From an uncultured SAR116 cluster alpha proteobacterium (GTDB lineage: Bacteria > Pseudomonadota > Alphaproteobacteria > Puniceispirillales > Marisalimonadaceae): a DNA stretch of 64,000 nt. A program made the translations under genes and the position numbers. The stretch's first letter is position 1, and each line of letters starts with the position of its first letter. Below are positions 6,442 to 13,970 of this stretch, piece after piece. Under the pieces are notes generated by a model that was given only the letters and a program-made list of their open reading frames with translations, searched no databases and was not told the origin of the DNA. The stretch is taken from contig CACCZR010000007.1 in assembly GCA_902550555.1 (NCBI GenBank), forward strand, positions 1 to 64,000, written 5' to 3'.

Positions 6442-8433
6442 TTATGTATTAATTTTACCTAAAATTTTTTCTCTAATCTTATCTGAACTTAATCCAAAAT
6501 GTTCAAATAAATGATTTGCAGGTGCTGATGCTCCAAATGTTTTCATTCCGATAAAAATACCATTTGATCCTATATATTTATGCCAGCCTAATTCTGAACC
6601 CGCTTCTACACCAACTTTTAATTTTTCTCCAAGAACATTTAATTTATATTCTTCTGATTGTTTTTCGAATATCTCCCAACATGGTAAAGATACCACTGAT
6701 GCTTTAATATTATCTTTTAATAATAGATCCGAAGTTTCTAATGCAATCTCAACCTCAGAACCTGTGGCAATTATTGTTAAATCTCTTTCATTTCCAAAAT
6801 CTTTAACGAGATATCCCCCTTTACTTGTAAGATTATCATTCCCTTTTTCGTCTCTAAATGTTTTTAAACCCTGTCTAGATAAAGCCAATATAGATGGTCC
6901 ATCATATTTTAGTGCAAGTTCCCATGCTTCTGCTGTTTCAACTGCATCAGCAGGACGAAATACATTAAGGTTAGGAGTTGCTCTCAGCATTGCTAAATGC
7001 TCTACTGGTTGATGAGTTGGACCATCTTCACCCAGACCAATTGAGTCATGTGTTAAAACATAAATCACTTTAGTTTTCATGAGAGCTGACAACCTAATTG
7101 AACTTCTCATATAATCACTAAAAACTAAAAAAGTTCCACCATATGTTATAAAACCTTTATGAAGAGCTATTCCATTCATAACAGCTCCCATCATGTGTTC
7201 TCTAATTCCATAATGAATATAATTAGCTTTAAATTTTTTTGGTTTTACAGAATTCATATCTGGGGTTTTTGTCAAGTTTGATCCTGTTAAATCAGCTGAG
7301 CCTCCAGCAATATTATCTACATTAGATGACAAAACTTTTAAAAATTCTAAACTTGCCTGTCTTGTAGCTAATTTAGGTTTTTCTAATTTCAATTTTTGAA
7401 TATGAGATTTTAAATTTTTATCAAAGACTTGGGATAAATTGTTTGAATTATTTTTAATAAATTTATTTTTTTTAGGACTTTTATTAAATCTATCTTCCCA
7501 TTCCTTTCTAATTTTTAACCCTCTTTCAACTGAAGCTCTCCAATTACTAAGTATGTCTTTAGGAACTTCAAATGGGTTACTTTTCCAATTTAATTCTTCT
7601 TTAACTTTTTTAACTTCATCATCCCCAAGTGGTGCTCCATGTGTTTTTTCAGTGCCCGCAAGATTTGGTGAACCAAATCCAATTATAGTTTTACAAGCAA
7701 TAAATGAAGGTTTATTGGTTTTTTGTGCATTTTCAATCGCCTTTGATATTTGATCAAAGTCGTGTCCATCAACTGATTGAGTATGCCAACCTGATGCTTT
7801 AAATCTAGCTATTTGATTACTTGAATTTGACAAGTTGGTATTGCCATCAATCGAAATTGAATTATTATCCCAAAGAACAATTAATTTTGCTAATTTTAAA
7901 TGTCCAGCAAATTCTATTGATTCATGACTTATACCCTCTTGGAGACACCCATCACCAACAATGACATAAGTAAAATGATCAACAAGATTTTTTCCAAACT
8001 TTGCATTAGACATTCTTTCGGCTAAAGCCATACCAACAGCAGTACCTAAACCTTGACCCAGAGGCCCTGTTGTAGTTTCAACTCCTAAAGTATCACCGTA
8101 TTCAGGGTGACCAGGTGTATTAGAATGTAGTTGTCTAAAGTTTTTTAAACTTTCAATGTTCATATCAGAATAACCTAAAAGGTAATTTAGAGCATATATA
8201 AGCATTGAACCATGACCAGCTGACAAAACAAATCTATCTCTGTCTGGCCAGTCAGGTTTGTTTACATCAATATTCAAATATTTGGAGAATAAAATTGTTG
8301 CAACGTCAGCAATACCCATGGGCATACCAGGATGACCTGAGTTTGCTTTTTGGACCCCTTCAGCTGCAAGTACTCTAATTGCATTAGACATTCTTTTTAA
8401 TGTTTCCATATTTAATTCTGATGTTTTAGACAT
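6442..8433 (-). CDS. tkt: Transketolase
   Basis: A 663-residue thiamine-diphosphate enzyme moving two-carbon units between sugar phosphates. The N-terminal domain has GHPGMPMG, SAGHGSML and the ThDP/metal motif GDGCLQEG; the middle domain has YGIREHMMG with the catalytic Glu, and the phosphate-binding region THDSIGLGEDGPTHQP; the C-terminal domain has LSRQ and a final ASAPANHLFEHFG. The ATG at 8433 is preferred over one five codons upstream because GAGAGA precedes it at proper spacing. It follows fbp by 27 bases. Together with Fbp, Rpe, Gap and Pgk it allows triose- and hexose-phosphates to be turned into pentoses. Confidence 0.96.
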   Translation of the reverse strand: MSKTSELNMETLKRMSNAIRVLAAEGVQKANSGHPGMPMGIADVATILFSKYLNIDVNKPDWPDRDRFVLSAGHGSMLIYALNYLLGYSDMNIESLKNFRQLHSNTPGHPEYGDTLGVETTTGPLGQGLGTAVGMALAERMSNAKFGKNLVDHFTYVIVGDGCLQEGISHESIEFAGHLKLAKLIVLWDNNSISIDGNTNLSNSSNQIARFKASGWHTQSVDGHDFDQISKAIENAQKTNKPSFIACKTIIGFGSPNLAGTEKTHGAPLGDDEVKKVKEELNWKSNPFEVPKDILSNWRASVERGLKIRKEWEDRFNKSPKKNKFIKNNSNNLSQVFDKNLKSHIQKLKLEKPKLATRQASLEFLKVLSSNVDNIAGGSADLTGSNLTKTPDMNSVKPKKFKANYIHYGIREHMMGAVMNGIALHKGFITYGGTFLVFSDYMRSSIRLSALMKTKVIYVLTHDSIGLGEDGPTHQPVEHLAMLRATPNLNVFRPADAVETAEAWELALKYDGPSILALSRQGLKTFRDEKGNDNLTSKGGYLVKDFGNERDLTIIATGSEVEIALETSDLLLKDNIKASVVSLPCWEIFEKQSEEYKLNVLGEKLKVGVEAGSELGWHKYIGSNGIFIGMKTFGASAPANHLFEHFGLSSDKIREKILGKINT

Positions 8434-8460
8434 AATTTCTCTCAACAATTTGATTTAGAC

Positions 8461-9408
8461 TTAATTAGTATTTAAAAAAATTTCAACCTCTTCTTTAGAA
8501 CCAAAAATAAAAGGTACACGTTGATGTATTTCATTCACTTCTACGTTTAAAATATCAATTGAACCATTTGTAGCTTTTCCTCCGGCCTGACTTATTAAAA
8601 AAGATATGGGATTAGCTTCATAAGTTAGCCTTAGTCTTCCACTTTTATTTTTTTCTCTTTTATCTTCTGGATAAAGAAAAATTCCACCTCTTTCAAAGAT
8701 TCTACTCGCGTCTGCAACTAATGATCCTACCCACCTCATATTAAAATTTTTTTCTCTTATTCCATCACTTCCATCTTCACAATTTTTTATGTAATTTTTT
8801 ACCTTGTCATTCCAAAATCTTCTATAAGAAGAATTGATAGAAAATTCAGATGTTGATTTTGGAATGATTATATTTGAATTTAATATATTAAATTGACTAT
8901 TTTTATTATCAAAATAAAAAGAATGTACTCCTTTACCAAGTGATAAAATAAGAGTTGTCTGAGGCCCATAGACAAAAAAACCTGCACATAATTGAGAATT
9001 GCCATTTTGTTTTAAAGAATTCTCAATTGAATCATTATAAAAAGGAAGAATTGAAAAAATTGTTCCTATTGATATGTTATTACCAATATTTGATGATCCG
9101 TCTAATGGATCACAAAATATCAAATATTTTCCATTTTTATCTATAGTTGTCATTCCATCTTGTTCTTCAGAACAATAGGCAGCAACCGAGCTGTTATTTA
9201 AAGACTCAAAAACACATTCATCAGCGAAAATATCTAATGGTTTTTGTTTGTCACCATCAGCATTTTGAGAAGTTTCTTTCTTATTTTCTAATGTATAATT
9301 ATTTCTTATTGAGTTTGATATTTTAATCGCTGCATTTGATAAATCTAATATAACCTTATTTAAAGAATCTATTGAATAGTTCTTTTCAAGAAAGGTTTTT
9401 AAATCCAT
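8461..9408 (-). CDS. fbp: Fructose-1,6-bisphosphatase, class I
   Basis: A 315-residue class I FBPase. The metal-binding core is present: SEEQDG followed by FCDPLDGSSNIGNN, and the C-terminal GGIFLYPEDK and SFLISQAGGKATNG segments bind sugar phosphate and metal. It hydrolyses fructose 1,6-bisphosphate to fructose 6-phosphate, the committing gluconeogenic step. It is the first gene of the leftward operon and is divergent from the GlnE-like gene across an 86-base A/T-rich gap that must hold both promoters. No strong Shine-Dalgarno sequence precedes the ATG. Fructose-bisphosphate aldolase, which would make its substrate, is not in the window. Confidence 0.95.
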   Translation of the reverse strand: MDLKTFLEKNYSIDSLNKVILDLSNAAIKISNSIRNNYTLENKKETSQNADGDKQKPLDIFADECVFESLNNSSVAAYCSEEQDGMTTIDKNGKYLIFCDPLDGSSNIGNNISIGTIFSILPFYNDSIENSLKQNGNSQLCAGFFVYGPQTTLILSLGKGVHSFYFDNKNSQFNILNSNIIIPKSTSEFSINSSYRRFWNDKVKNYIKNCEDGSDGIREKNFNMRWVGSLVADASRIFERGGIFLYPEDKREKNKSGRLRLTYEANPISFLISQAGGKATNGSIDILNVEVNEIHQRVPFIFGSKEEVEIFLNTN

Positions 9409-9494: not shown

Positions 9495-11060
9495 TTGAAC
9501 TATATAAATAAAATTCAATTGCCAGAAAATATTTCATCAATAAATGATGTAAATGAATATTATGATCAAAACATAAATGATTTAATAATCTATCTTTTTA
9601 AAAAAACAAAATTCAATAAACATGATATTTTAAATTATTATAAAGCTTACTTTAAAAATATTATTCATAAAAAAATACAAGATGATTACATAGACTTAAT
9701 TGAAAAGTTTTCTAATTCTATACTACCTATAATTTTAAAGTCTAAATATCCTAGACAAGGCACTTATCAGCTTCTGAGATTTATAGATGCTATACAACCC
9801 AATTTTGAATTTATTGAGATGGCGATTTTAAATTCTTTTTCTCACAAAAAAATAACAGATATTCTTACCTTCTCAGGACATGCTACAAATCTTTTGTCTA
9901 AAGATATTAGGTTGCTAGAAATATTAGATCCTTATTACGAAATAAAATTAAATAAGAATATTAATATATATCAAAAAGAATTTAATAAAATAAGTATTAA
10001 TGAAGATGAAGAAACAATCTTAAATAAATTAAGAAAGACTCATAGACAACTTAAATTTCAAATCATTGTATCAATTATAACTGATGAATTAAAAGTAGAA
10101 GATGCTGCATATGAATTTTATCTATTAGCTCATTGTACTCTACAAAAAGTTCAAAAAATTGCTGTTCATTTAATATCTAAAGAAAAAAAATTTGATCCAA
10201 CTGCTTTAGATGATTTTGGAATCTTGTCATACGGAAGATTTGCTCAACATTTGATGACATCAAACTCTGATTTAGATCTAGTGTTTATTTTTCCAGATAG
10301 AAACCAGAGTTTTCAGAATCAGAAAACTTATCATTTTATTTTGTCACTTATTGCACAAAAAATGATTTCAATATTAAGTTCAAAAACATCTCAGAATCTA
10401 ATTTATGAGATAGATACTAAACTTGGACCTAAGGTAAGTATTAGTTCAAACGCTTGTACATTATCTGAATTTAAATCATTTCATGAAAACGAGACTTTTT
10501 CATGGGAAAAAATGGCATTAATGAAAAGTAAATTAGTTTTTAAAGATAGTAATTTTCAGAATGAATTAGAAAAAGTTATTCAAAAATTTAAATTACAAAC
10601 AATTAATAGTAAAAATTTAATTCAAGAAATTAATGAAATGAGAAAAATAGTCATAAAACCTGAAACAAAAAAGAAGAATGAAAAACAAAGTAATTTGAAT
10701 ATTTCTGAAAATGTAGAAAACAAAATTCATTGGTACGAAACTAAATATTCTTTAGGCGGGCAAAGAGATATTGAATTCTTAGAATTTTTTTTCAACAATT
10801 CAAAATGTTATGAAATAATAGAAAATTTAGAGGAGAAAAAATACTTCATTAAAAAAGCAAAAATGTTTTATTTTATTATTGATCAATATGTAAATCTTAC
10901 ATATTCAAATCAAAAACCTAGCAGATTAACAAATCAAATTTTAGAAAAGCTTCAGAGAAATCTAAATATTAAAGATTTAGGTTCCCTAAAAATGAGTCTT
11001 AAAAAGACTAAAAATGAAATTAATAAATATTTATCACTCATCCTTGAGCACAGTTTATAA
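9495..11060 (+). CDS. Half-length GlnE-like glutamine synthetase adenylyltransferase
   Basis: A 521-residue protein matching only the C-terminal, adenylylating half of GlnE, which is normally about 950 residues with two nucleotidyltransferase domains. The N-terminal helices read like the region before that domain (FIEMAILNSF, LLEILDP, then LRKTHRQLKFQI). The catalytic core is SYGRFAQHL followed by SDLDLVFIFPD (Asp259, Asp261), with a third Asp in EIDTKLGP (Asp307), SWEKMALMKSKLVF, and GGQRDIEFLEFF in place of the usual GGxxDIEF. The three metal-binding Asp residues therefore look intact although the classic GKLGG loop is altered. The start is a TTG with no good Shine-Dalgarno; no in-frame ATG lies between it and an upstream stop at 9477. 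It lies 146 bases before amtB, supporting a nitrogen-control role. The deadenylylating half is absent here. Confidence 0.75.
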   Translation: MNYINKIQLPENISSINDVNEYYDQNINDLIIYLFKKTKFNKHDILNYYKAYFKNIIHKKIQDDYIDLIEKFSNSILPIILKSKYPRQGTYQLLRFIDAIQPNFEFIEMAILNSFSHKKITDILTFSGHATNLLSKDIRLLEILDPYYEIKLNKNINIYQKEFNKISINEDEETILNKLRKTHRQLKFQIIVSIITDELKVEDAAYEFYLLAHCTLQKVQKIAVHLISKEKKFDPTALDDFGILSYGRFAQHLMTSNSDLDLVFIFPDRNQSFQNQKTYHFILSLIAQKMISILSSKTSQNLIYEIDTKLGPKVSISSNACTLSEFKSFHENETFSWEKMALMKSKLVFKDSNFQNELEKVIQKFKLQTINSKNLIQEINEMRKIVIKPETKKKNEKQSNLNISENVENKIHWYETKYSLGGQRDIEFLEFFFNNSKCYEIIENLEEKKYFIKKAKMFYFIIDQYVNLTYSNQKPSRLTNQILEKLQRNLNIKDLGSLKMSLKKTKNEINKYLSLILEHSL

Positions 11061-11206: not shown

Positions 11207-12487
11207 ATGAAAAGATTTTTAAAATTAGGCTTGTTATCAAGCTGCTTGTTTGCGTCTTCTATAGCAAACGCAGCAGTTGATTCTGAAGTCGCTTATATTT
11301 TCAACTCATTTTCCTTTTTGGTTCATGGGTTCTTAGTGATGCTTATGGCAGCTGGTTTCTGTATGTTGGAAACAGGTTTGGTTAGAGCTAAAAATGCAGT
11401 TGTCCAATGTGCTAAGAATATTGGATTATATTCTATTGCTGGAATAATGTTTGCAGTTGTTGGATATAATCTTATGTATATGGATGTTTCAGGTTGGATT
11501 GGCTCATTTGCAATATGGGGCCCTTCTGATAAACTTGACCCGCTTGAGGGTGATTATTCATCAGGATCTGATTGGTGGTTTCAAATGGTTTTTTGTGCTA
11601 CAACTGCCTCAATTGTAAGTGGTGCAGTAGCTGAAAGAGTTAAATTATCAAGTTTTCTTATTTTTGTAATATTCTTAACAGCCTTTATATACCCAATTCA
11701 AGGCTCATGGTCTTGGGGTGGTGGATACCTAAGTGAAGCGGGTTTTCTTGATTTTGCTGGATCCTCAATTGTGCATGGTGTTGGTGGCTGGGCTGCTTTA
11801 ACCGGTGCAATAATATTAGGTGCTAGAAAAGGTAAATATGCATCAGACGGTAGTGTTAATCCAATGCCAGGTTCTAACTTACCATTAGCAACTTTAGGTA
11901 CTTTTATCTTATGGTTTGGATGGTTTGGTTTTAATGGTGGATCACAATTAGCAATGGGATCTGCTGCTGATGTCGCCGCTATATCAAACATATATATAAA
12001 TACTAATCTTGCAGCAGCGGCTGGAGTAGTTGTAGCAATTGTATTTACAATGGCTTTTTATAAAAAAACTGATCTTACAATGGCCTTAAATGGTGCATTG
12101 GGTGGATTGGTAGCAATAACTGCAGAACCTCTTGCTCCAACTCCAATGTTAGCAATATTTATTGGTGCTGTTGGTGGATTGATTGTAGTGCTTGCTATAC
12201 CAATGTTAGATAAATTCAAAATTGATGACGTAGTAGGAGCTGTACCAGTTCACTTATTTGCTGGTATTTGGGGAACAATAGCAGTTGTTTTTTCAAACTC
12301 TGATGCAAATATTGGGTCTCAGTTATACGGAATATTAGCAATTGGTGCTTTTACAGTAATTGCATCTTCAATCGTATGGTACGCCATAAAGTTAATTATT
12401 GGTATTAGAGTATCTGAAGAGCAAGAACTAGAAGGTGTCGATGTAAGTGAGGTAGGCATGGAAGCTTATCCTGACTTTAGAAAATAA
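11207..12487 (+). CDS. amtB: Ammonium transporter, Amt/MEP family
   Basis: A 426-residue integral membrane protein with a hydrophobic N-terminal signal sequence ending near IANAA, followed by about eleven membrane segments. Family blocks include MAAGFCMLETGLVRAKN, WGGGYLS, DFAGSSIVHGVGGWAAL with the first pore histidine, FGWFGFNGGS, and VHLFAGIWGT with the second pore histidine. It conducts ammonium/ammonia across the inner membrane. The ATG is preceded by AAGGAG. It lies between the GlnE-like gene and convergent glutamate dehydrogenase, forming a small nitrogen-assimilation block. No glnB/glnK gene, the usual amtB partner, is next to it. A strong terminator follows. Confidence 0.96.
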   Translation: MKRFLKLGLLSSCLFASSIANAAVDSEVAYIFNSFSFLVHGFLVMLMAAGFCMLETGLVRAKNAVVQCAKNIGLYSIAGIMFAVVGYNLMYMDVSGWIGSFAIWGPSDKLDPLEGDYSSGSDWWFQMVFCATTASIVSGAVAERVKLSSFLIFVIFLTAFIYPIQGSWSWGGGYLSEAGFLDFAGSSIVHGVGGWAALTGAIILGARKGKYASDGSVNPMPGSNLPLATLGTFILWFGWFGFNGGSQLAMGSAADVAAISNIYINTNLAAAAGVVVAIVFTMAFYKKTDLTMALNGALGGLVAITAEPLAPTPMLAIFIGAVGGLIVVLAIPMLDKFKIDDVVGAVPVHLFAGIWGTIAVVFSNSDANIGSQLYGILAIGAFTVIASSIVWYAIKLIIGIRVSEEQELEGVDVSEVGMEAYPDFRK

Positions 12488-12548: not shown

Positions 12549-13970
12549 CTATAACCCTAATGAATGATAGCTATCCATTACTCTTTTAACGGAAACCATC
12601 ATAGCAGATGTCCTTAAATCATTTGCATTAGGATTATTATTCCAAACATTACTTATTACATCATAAGTATTCCTCATAGTGTCTTCTAACCCAGATCTAA
12701 CTAAATCAATTTCTGCTGAACCCTGCATTACTAATTCTTTGTATTCATCTGGGAATTTAGAACCTGTCATCTTTTCTAGTGCTTTTATCATTAATGAAGT
12801 TTGGTTTTCCTGAGCTCTTCTTTGAAGTCTTCCTAAACGAATTCTACTTAAGTTTTTAATCCATTCGAAATAACTAACTGTAACTCCTCCTGCATTAGCA
12901 TAAAGATCTGGGATTATAACAACTCCTTTTTTACTCAACATTTCATCAGCTTCACTAGACACAGGACCATTTGCAGCCTCAATTATTAATGGCGTTTTAA
13001 TTTTTTCGGCATTTCCTTTATTAATTACTAATTCCATTGCAGCAGGAATTAAAATATCAGCATCCTCTTCTAATATTTCAGAACCTTTATCAACAAATCC
13101 TTCAAAACCTTTGACCCCACCATTTTTGAAAATATGCTCTCTTAACTCTTTTATGTTTACTCCTCTTGGATTTACAACTGAACCATCTCTTTCGATAACA
13201 TGAGTGATTAGGCATCCATCTTCATTGGATAAAAATAAAGCTGCGTGGTAGCCAACATTTCCTAAACCTTGAACTATTACTCTTTTACCCTTTAAACCTG
13301 GTGTAAGACCTGTTTTTTTTACATCATTTGGATGATCAAAAAATGCTCTTAAAGCGTACTGAACTCCTCTTCCAGTCGCTTCTGTCCTTCCACCAATTCC
13401 ACCCTTATTTACTGGTTTTCCAGTTACACATGCCCAAGCATTCAAATCTGTAGGATTTAATTTTCTATACTCATCTGCCATCCAAGCCATTTCTCTTTCA
13501 CCTGTACCTACATCAGGTGCTGGAACATTTTGAGAAGGGTGAATTAAATCTCTTTTGGCTAATTCTTGAGTAAATCGTCTTGTTATTCTTTCTAGCTCTT
13601 CTTCTGTCCAATCTCTAATATTTATTTCAAGACCACCTTTAGATCCTCCAAATGGAACTTCAACTAATGAACATTTGTAGGTCATAAGCGCTGCTAAAGC
13701 TTCTACTTCATCTTGGTTTACTTCTACATCATATCTTATACCACCCTTAACAGGTTCAAAATGATCAGAATGAACAGATCTGTAGCCAGTGAAAGTATAT
13801 ATAGTTCCACGTAATCTTACACCAAATCTTACCACATAAGTAGAATTTGCCGTCATTATTTGGCCTGCTAATTCATCTGTATAACCTTCTTTTCCTTCAG
13901 TTTTTTGTAAGCATTCAACTGCTTTTTTGTAATTCACCTCAATTGATTCTAAAAACTCATGACCTGCCAT
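12549..13970 (-). CDS. gdhA: Glu/Leu/Phe/Val-family dehydrogenase, probable glutamate dehydrogenase
   Basis: A 473-residue amino acid dehydrogenase. The active-site segment PFGGSKGGLEI carries the catalytic Lys, PAPDVGTGEREMAWM includes the catalytic Asp, and the nucleotide-binding motif GLGNVGYHAA lies in the second domain. The N-terminal FRVRLRG-type segment (FGVRLRGTIYTFTGYR) and the HSDHFEPVKGGIRY region are typical of GDH-like members. It would interconvert 2-oxoglutarate plus ammonium and glutamate. A GGGGAGGT Shine-Dalgarno precedes the ATG. Neighbouring amtB suggests use in ammonium assimilation; a catabolic direction is also possible. Leucine dehydrogenase activity cannot be excluded from sequence alone. 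Confidence 0.88.
   Translation of the reverse strand: MAGHEFLESIEVNYKKAVECLQKTEGKEGYTDELAGQIMTANSTYVVRFGVRLRGTIYTFTGYRSVHSDHFEPVKGGIRYDVEVNQDEVEALAALMTYKCSLVEVPFGGSKGGLEINIRDWTEEELERITRRFTQELAKRDLIHPSQNVPAPDVGTGEREMAWMADEYRKLNPTDLNAWACVTGKPVNKGGIGGRTEATGRGVQYALRAFFDHPNDVKKTGLTPGLKGKRVIVQGLGNVGYHAALFLSNEDGCLITHVIERDGSVVNPRGVNIKELREHIFKNGGVKGFEGFVDKGSEILEEDADILIPAAMELVINKGNAEKIKTPLIIEAANGPVSSEADEMLSKKGVVIIPDLYANAGGVTVSYFEWIKNLSRIRLGRLQRRAQENQTSLMIKALEKMTGSKFPDEYKELVMQGSAEIDLVRSGLEDTMRNTYDVISNVWNNNPNANDLRTSAMMVSVKRVMDSYHSLGL

Follow-up and report, generated by a model that had tools for sequence, protein, structure and literature searches.

The window analysed here is a stretch of 64,000 nucleotides from an uncultured SAR116 alphaproteobacterium, in which a half-size glnE gene lies between a divergent fbp, whose start is 86 bp away, and an ammonium transporter gene (Table 1). 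GlnE is the classic case of a covalent switch that works in both directions, a single chain carrying the adding and the removing activity. An earlier note on this DNA, made from the letters alone, had proposed that only the adenylylating (AT) half is present, that the half removing AMP from glutamine synthetase (GS), here the AR half, is absent, and that fbp and amtB flank the gene. Both neighbours are seen at the locus and are conserved in the family, in which the gene order tkt-fbp-glnE-amtB-gdh-terB-acad is maintained throughout; in the sister families, amtB, fbp, gdh and tkt do not adjoin glnE. The glutamate dehydrogenase at 12549-13970 scores best with archaeal-type GdhA models, yet below their cut-offs. 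In several relatives, putative pirin and FMN-binding (PaiB-like) genes are found between fbp and the half glnE (L155 2284-3848, L163 2187-3721, L113 5779-7354, and also L165, L168 and L179).

Table 1. Features of the half-size glnE locus, in window positions
Feature	Position	Strand	Remarks
Transketolase gene (tkt), conserved neighbour	6442..8448	-	named by sequence
fbp, class 1 fructose-bisphosphatase, divergent neighbour	8461..9408	-	
Half-size glnE (regulatory-like N-terminal helical region + AT half)	9495..11060	+	521 aa, TTG start
Helical region, residues 36-117	9600..9845	+	aligned to E. coli GlnE from 471 onward (central regulatory region, then AT); model 37-520 on 3k7d 473-946
PF03710 GlnE nucleotidyltransferase domain	9846..10571	+	profile match
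SDLDL motif, residues 258-262	10266..10280	+	catalytic Asp259 and Asp261
Third catalytic Asp307, in YEIDTKLGP	10413..10415	+	RLRP of relatives is KLGP here
GGQRDIEF block, residues 421-428	10755..10778	+	Asp as in AT halves, Arg before it as in AR halves
amtB, conserved neighbour; ammonium transporter of the marine subtype (TIGR03644)	11207..12487	+	
Glutamate dehydrogenase gene, conserved neighbour	12549..13970	-	convergent to amtB

The 521-residue protein contains a single match to PF03710 (GlnE) in a profile search (residues 118-359, 5e-29; 101.9 bits versus a cut-off of 24), and all 31 family members compared match the same profile. Among the NCBIfam GlnE equivalog models, the C-terminal halves alone are covered, query residues 36-430 falling on 471-859 of 946 in one model and 74-519 on 536-984 of 986 in a second, while for the bifunctional equivalog (PRK11072/PRK14108) the score is 137 bits where the cut-off lies at 487, one half only being present. 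The alignment to E. coli GlnE begins at about residue 471, where the central regulatory region of that protein starts, and continues through its AT half. The domain layout used here (central regulatory region, AT half) is that of the literature as cited in PMC12409994.

The identity of the remaining half has been addressed with separate AR and AT models, built from 34 two-domain GlnE proteins of Alphaproteobacteria. Each of the 18 half proteins scores higher with the AT model, at 125-183 bits versus 52-88 for AR (a margin of roughly 70-105 bits), the window protein itself scoring 140 versus 62 bits. In the joint alignment, 18 diagnostic columns could be classified, of which 16 resemble AT and two AR. 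The Asp triad (D259, D261, D307) is kept in 18/18 halves, and SDLDL, D307 and GGQRDIEF are invariant or nearly so across the halves of the family; the three Asp positions, the SDLDL motif and the DIEF block described in the earlier note are all present. The RLRP that follows the third Asp is altered, with Lys replacing R309 in all halves and a variable residue at R311 (Gly in the window protein). The same note had singled out a loop reading YGRFAQH; the GRFAQH letters are there, but the loop is mostly ordinary and was largely rejected as a special feature, as Gly-Arg is common at this site in two-domain relatives (Arg instead of Lys in 17 of the 34 AT halves) and only the Gly-to-Ala change after the Arg is unusual, GG to GA being frequent among the halves.

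Comparison with solved structures points in the same direction. The family profile has its best hit in 3k7d, the adenylylation domain of E. coli GlnE (1.6e-39), followed by 1v4a, the N-terminal domain of that protein (3.4e-20). The predicted structure of the half-GlnE monomer (pLDDT 84.8, pTM 0.87) superimposes on 1v4a with a Z of 28.4 over 388 residues and on 3k7d with a Z of 27.0 over 421 residues, residues 37-520 of the model lying on 473-946, so that the part preceding the AT domain is covered as well. The resemblance to both E. coli domains is expected, since the two halves are homologous. Profiles and structures alike return GlnE and argue against an unrelated nucleotidyltransferase family. 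In the tree, the halves group with AT, a placement fully supported by SH-aLRT, on a long stem of 2.53 changes per column; an AU test did not reject a grouping with the AR halves (p 0.255) and, since it leaves AR kinship possible, the assignment rests on the profiles and the diagnostic columns. Judged from these, the window protein is the AT (adenylylating) half of GlnE.

As the AR half is absent and the AT half alone is there, one-way control becomes a live possibility. Alternatively, the switch could still be two-way, a single site both adding and removing AMP, by pyrophosphorolysis or through a gained phosphorolytic AR activity, with PII and PII-UMP setting the direction. R424 of the GGQRDIEF block, invariant in the 34 AR halves and not among the commonest residues of AT halves, and the AR-like I426 would suit such a site, in which an AR-like Arg within an otherwise AT-like DIEF block would contribute; PII and GlnD are also retained, and reversal of the adenylyltransferase reaction was reported long ago (Mantel and Holzer 1970, as referenced in PMC12409994). 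Against this, AR-like residues occupy only those two of the 18 classifiable diagnostic columns, and the AR motifs near the nucleotide site (SSDID, RVDLRLRPDP) have not been restored in the halves. We regard a two-way switch of this kind as unlikely, and quite improbable the specific case of one GlnE active site that adds and removes AMP on GS under PII/PII-UMP control.

The half form is a trait of the whole family and not one odd gene. Of its 37 genomes, 30 gave a GlnE match, in every case with a single GlnE domain. The ORFs span 379-528 aa, and the two shortest (G008, G024) sit at contig edges; genomes 95-100% complete (G013, G014, G019) also carry the half form only. Other GlnE matches in the family are weak and lie in ORFs of 925-971 aa that are also found by the GlnD search. 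Of the seven genomes lacking a match, four (G001, G004, G011, G021) had a recognisable glnE-linked amtB, and in each of these the contig breaks off directly upstream of that gene. In the sister families, f2 and f4, 18 of 19 genomes encode a two-domain GlnE (914-1035 aa), and sampling of 386 alphaproteobacterial and 397 phylum-wide genomes indicates that intact GlnE essentially always has both halves, nearly all exceptions belonging to the window's family, to lineage f32 (where the second half scores below the cut-off) or to fragmented assemblies. In f3, a family of the same order, no GlnE above the cut-off was found in G038, G041, G044, G047 and G050, and likewise in G039 (f4), 99% complete. 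As a separate observation, the two f3 GlnA sequences read keep YDLP, and PII and/or GlnD remain in most of the GlnE-less f3/f4 genomes. Named records place the window's family (f1) in SAR116, with genomes from single cells and metagenomes, SCGC AAA536-G10 among them; a low-GC, uncultured, streamlined SAR116 subclade has been described (PMC8547437), and family f1 presumably corresponds to this AAA536-G10 subclade.

A truncated assembly, a frameshift or a chimera might be suspected, given that the window's genome (G000) is 69% complete. The same length, start region and neighbours recur, though, in dozens of single-cell and metagenome assemblies obtained independently, and the divergent upstream genes are intact; these independent genomes refute an artefact. 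The AR half was probably lost a single time, in the common ancestor of the family.

Nor does the missing half survive as a split gene in the genomes searched. No second GlnE half was found elsewhere in the 69% complete window genome, and an AR-half profile run on 13 family genomes, members 90-100% complete included, recovered only the half itself and weak matches of GlnD length, two two-domain controls scoring 668-748 bits. The absence of the AR half put forward in the earlier note is thereby upheld for the family. Some members have a further 1.6 kb between fbp and glnE; as a place for the missing half it was discarded, the ORFs there resembling pirin and an FMN-binding protein by sequence. 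An unrelated enzyme could still remove the AMP, the two activities being split over different proteins, since deAMPylases other than GlnE exist and RNase Z strips AMP from SelO substrates (PMC12663964). RNase Z itself was dropped as a candidate eraser because the E. coli enzyme is reported not to act on GlnA (PMC12663964), and with no AR-like gene detected in the family by the AR-half profile and no candidate in the conserved neighbourhood, where the additional fbp-glnE genes look like pirin and an FMN-binding protein, a separate eraser appears improbable.

The rest of the regulatory cascade is represented in the genome or its genus. The window's genome encodes one GlnA, adjoining a glnB (PII at G000:C1:14493), a second PII at C1:35886, and GOGAT; both PII proteins have the uridylylation tyrosine (TELYRGAEY). 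The earlier note was thus correct that no PII gene lies in the window, but the genome has two. GlnD was not found in the 69% complete G000; of the 12 other genomes in the genus, 11 have it, as do most of those in the family. The adenylylation tyrosine of GlnA is intact in all 23 family sequences (KDLYELP in G000:C1). Target, PII sensor and sensor-modifier are therefore kept in genome or genus, and the removing half alone is gone. The suggestion that switching might use another partner loses its ground, as PII, GlnD and a GlnA with an intact tyrosine exist in the genome or in genus-mates and no other partner need be invoked. Some family members (G021, G022, G026) have in addition a second amtB, of the glnK-linked type. 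With respect to the GlnA site, YELP, with Glu for Asp after the adenylylated Tyr, occurs in GlnA of f1, f20, f60, f131 and f136, unrelated alphaproteobacterial lineages with and without GlnE. Co-evolution of the target, suggested by YELP in the family versus YDLP in the sister families, was rejected, YELP also accompanying two-domain GlnE (f20, f131) and the GlnE-less f3 keeping YDLP.

The half-glnE is under purifying selection, its dN/dS of 0.13-0.28 between close relatives being above that of amtB and gdh and well below 1. This bears on a further explanation, namely that the half-GlnE modifies a different target or is a non-catalytic regulator. The long stem branch, the altered RLRP and loop, and the fact that the lowest GlnE scores of the family come from the window's own genus are consistent with a changed role; selection, the Asp triad invariant in all members, the conserved Tyr of GlnA and the linkage to amtB and gdh speak against it, and we consider it rather unlikely.

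The reading that we hold to be probable, if far from certain, is that of a naturally truncated GS adenylyltransferase, made of the central regulatory region and the AT half, steered by PII and glutamine and effectively one-way in its inactivation of GS; its catalysis, target, PII control and one-way behaviour are what we infer. In the general GlnE mechanism, AT adds AMP to GlnA under unmodified PII, that is, under nitrogen sufficiency, and AR removes it by phosphorolysis under PII-UMP (PMC12409994). The half-GlnE would transfer AMP from ATP to the conserved Tyr of the single type I GS (..KDLYELP..), triggered by unmodified PII and glutamine as signals of nitrogen sufficiency. Without the AR half, PII-UMP could not drive phosphorolytic AMP removal and would merely fail to stimulate AT, so that inactivation of GS would be effectively one-way. 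GS activity might then be regained by new GlnA synthesis, by dilution or by a slow PPi-dependent reversal of the AT reaction, and the adjacent ammonium transporter and glutamate dehydrogenase could offer ammonium another way in. There is laboratory precedent for such an activity, as GlnE cut down to its AT domain acts as a one-way adenylylating enzyme on GS in both Azospirillum and Azorhizobium; in Azorhizobium, even leaky expression nearly stopped growth on ammonium (PMC9249168). Since an unrestrained laboratory version is harmful, the natural half-GlnE is expected to be weak or tightly dependent on PII and glutamine and, by analogy, must be restrained in some way not seen here. The altered motifs shared by AR and AT (RLRP to KLxP, loop GG to GA), together with the long stem, imply that activity or specificity may have changed.

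The literature searched, which comprised non-subscription sources, yielded no account of a naturally occurring half-GlnE, and the main texts of two SAR116 papers (PMC8547437, PMC12262181) do not mention glnE. This family of open-ocean SAR116 bacteria has lost the half that removes AMP but still has the target, the sensor and the enzyme that modifies the sensor. Should the switch be one-way, it would show how streamlined bacteria living in nitrogen-poor water get by without rapid re-activation of GS, and the half-GlnE would be a natural, evolved counterpart to the truncated GlnE engineered for ammonia release; if a single site does both, a family of abundant ocean bacteria would run the cycle with half the enzyme. 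The half-GlnE also allows a direct test of whether the AR half is needed.

With the two-domain GlnE of E. coli (946 aa), the half-GlnE shares the AT fold, the Asp triad, the motif order, the central regulatory region and, in genome or genus, the GlnA, PII and GlnD partners; it differs in missing the whole AR half, in the altered RLRP and in the adjoining amtB, and is only 17-20% identical to full-length relatives of the same order. DrrA/SidM is likewise a single nucleotidyltransferase that adenylylates Tyr, but its fold match to the model is weaker (Z 16.9), it is not among the sequence matches to solved structures, and its Rab targets belong to an unrelated biology. An asymmetric reduction of GlnE in small genomes is also seen in f32 (G088, G359), alphaproteobacteria of 1.4 Mb, as a mirror image of the present case: in these proteins of 769-776 aa (L278, L279), the AR half is well conserved, and the AT half has eroded to the point of being barely recognisable. 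About the same architecture is found in the engineered unidirectional adenylyltransferase (uAT), an N-terminally truncated E. coli or Azorhizobium GlnE that likewise consists of the AT half only (PMC9249168); uATs, however, are man-made and shut GS down strongly, whereas the half-GlnE is native, conserved and under selection.
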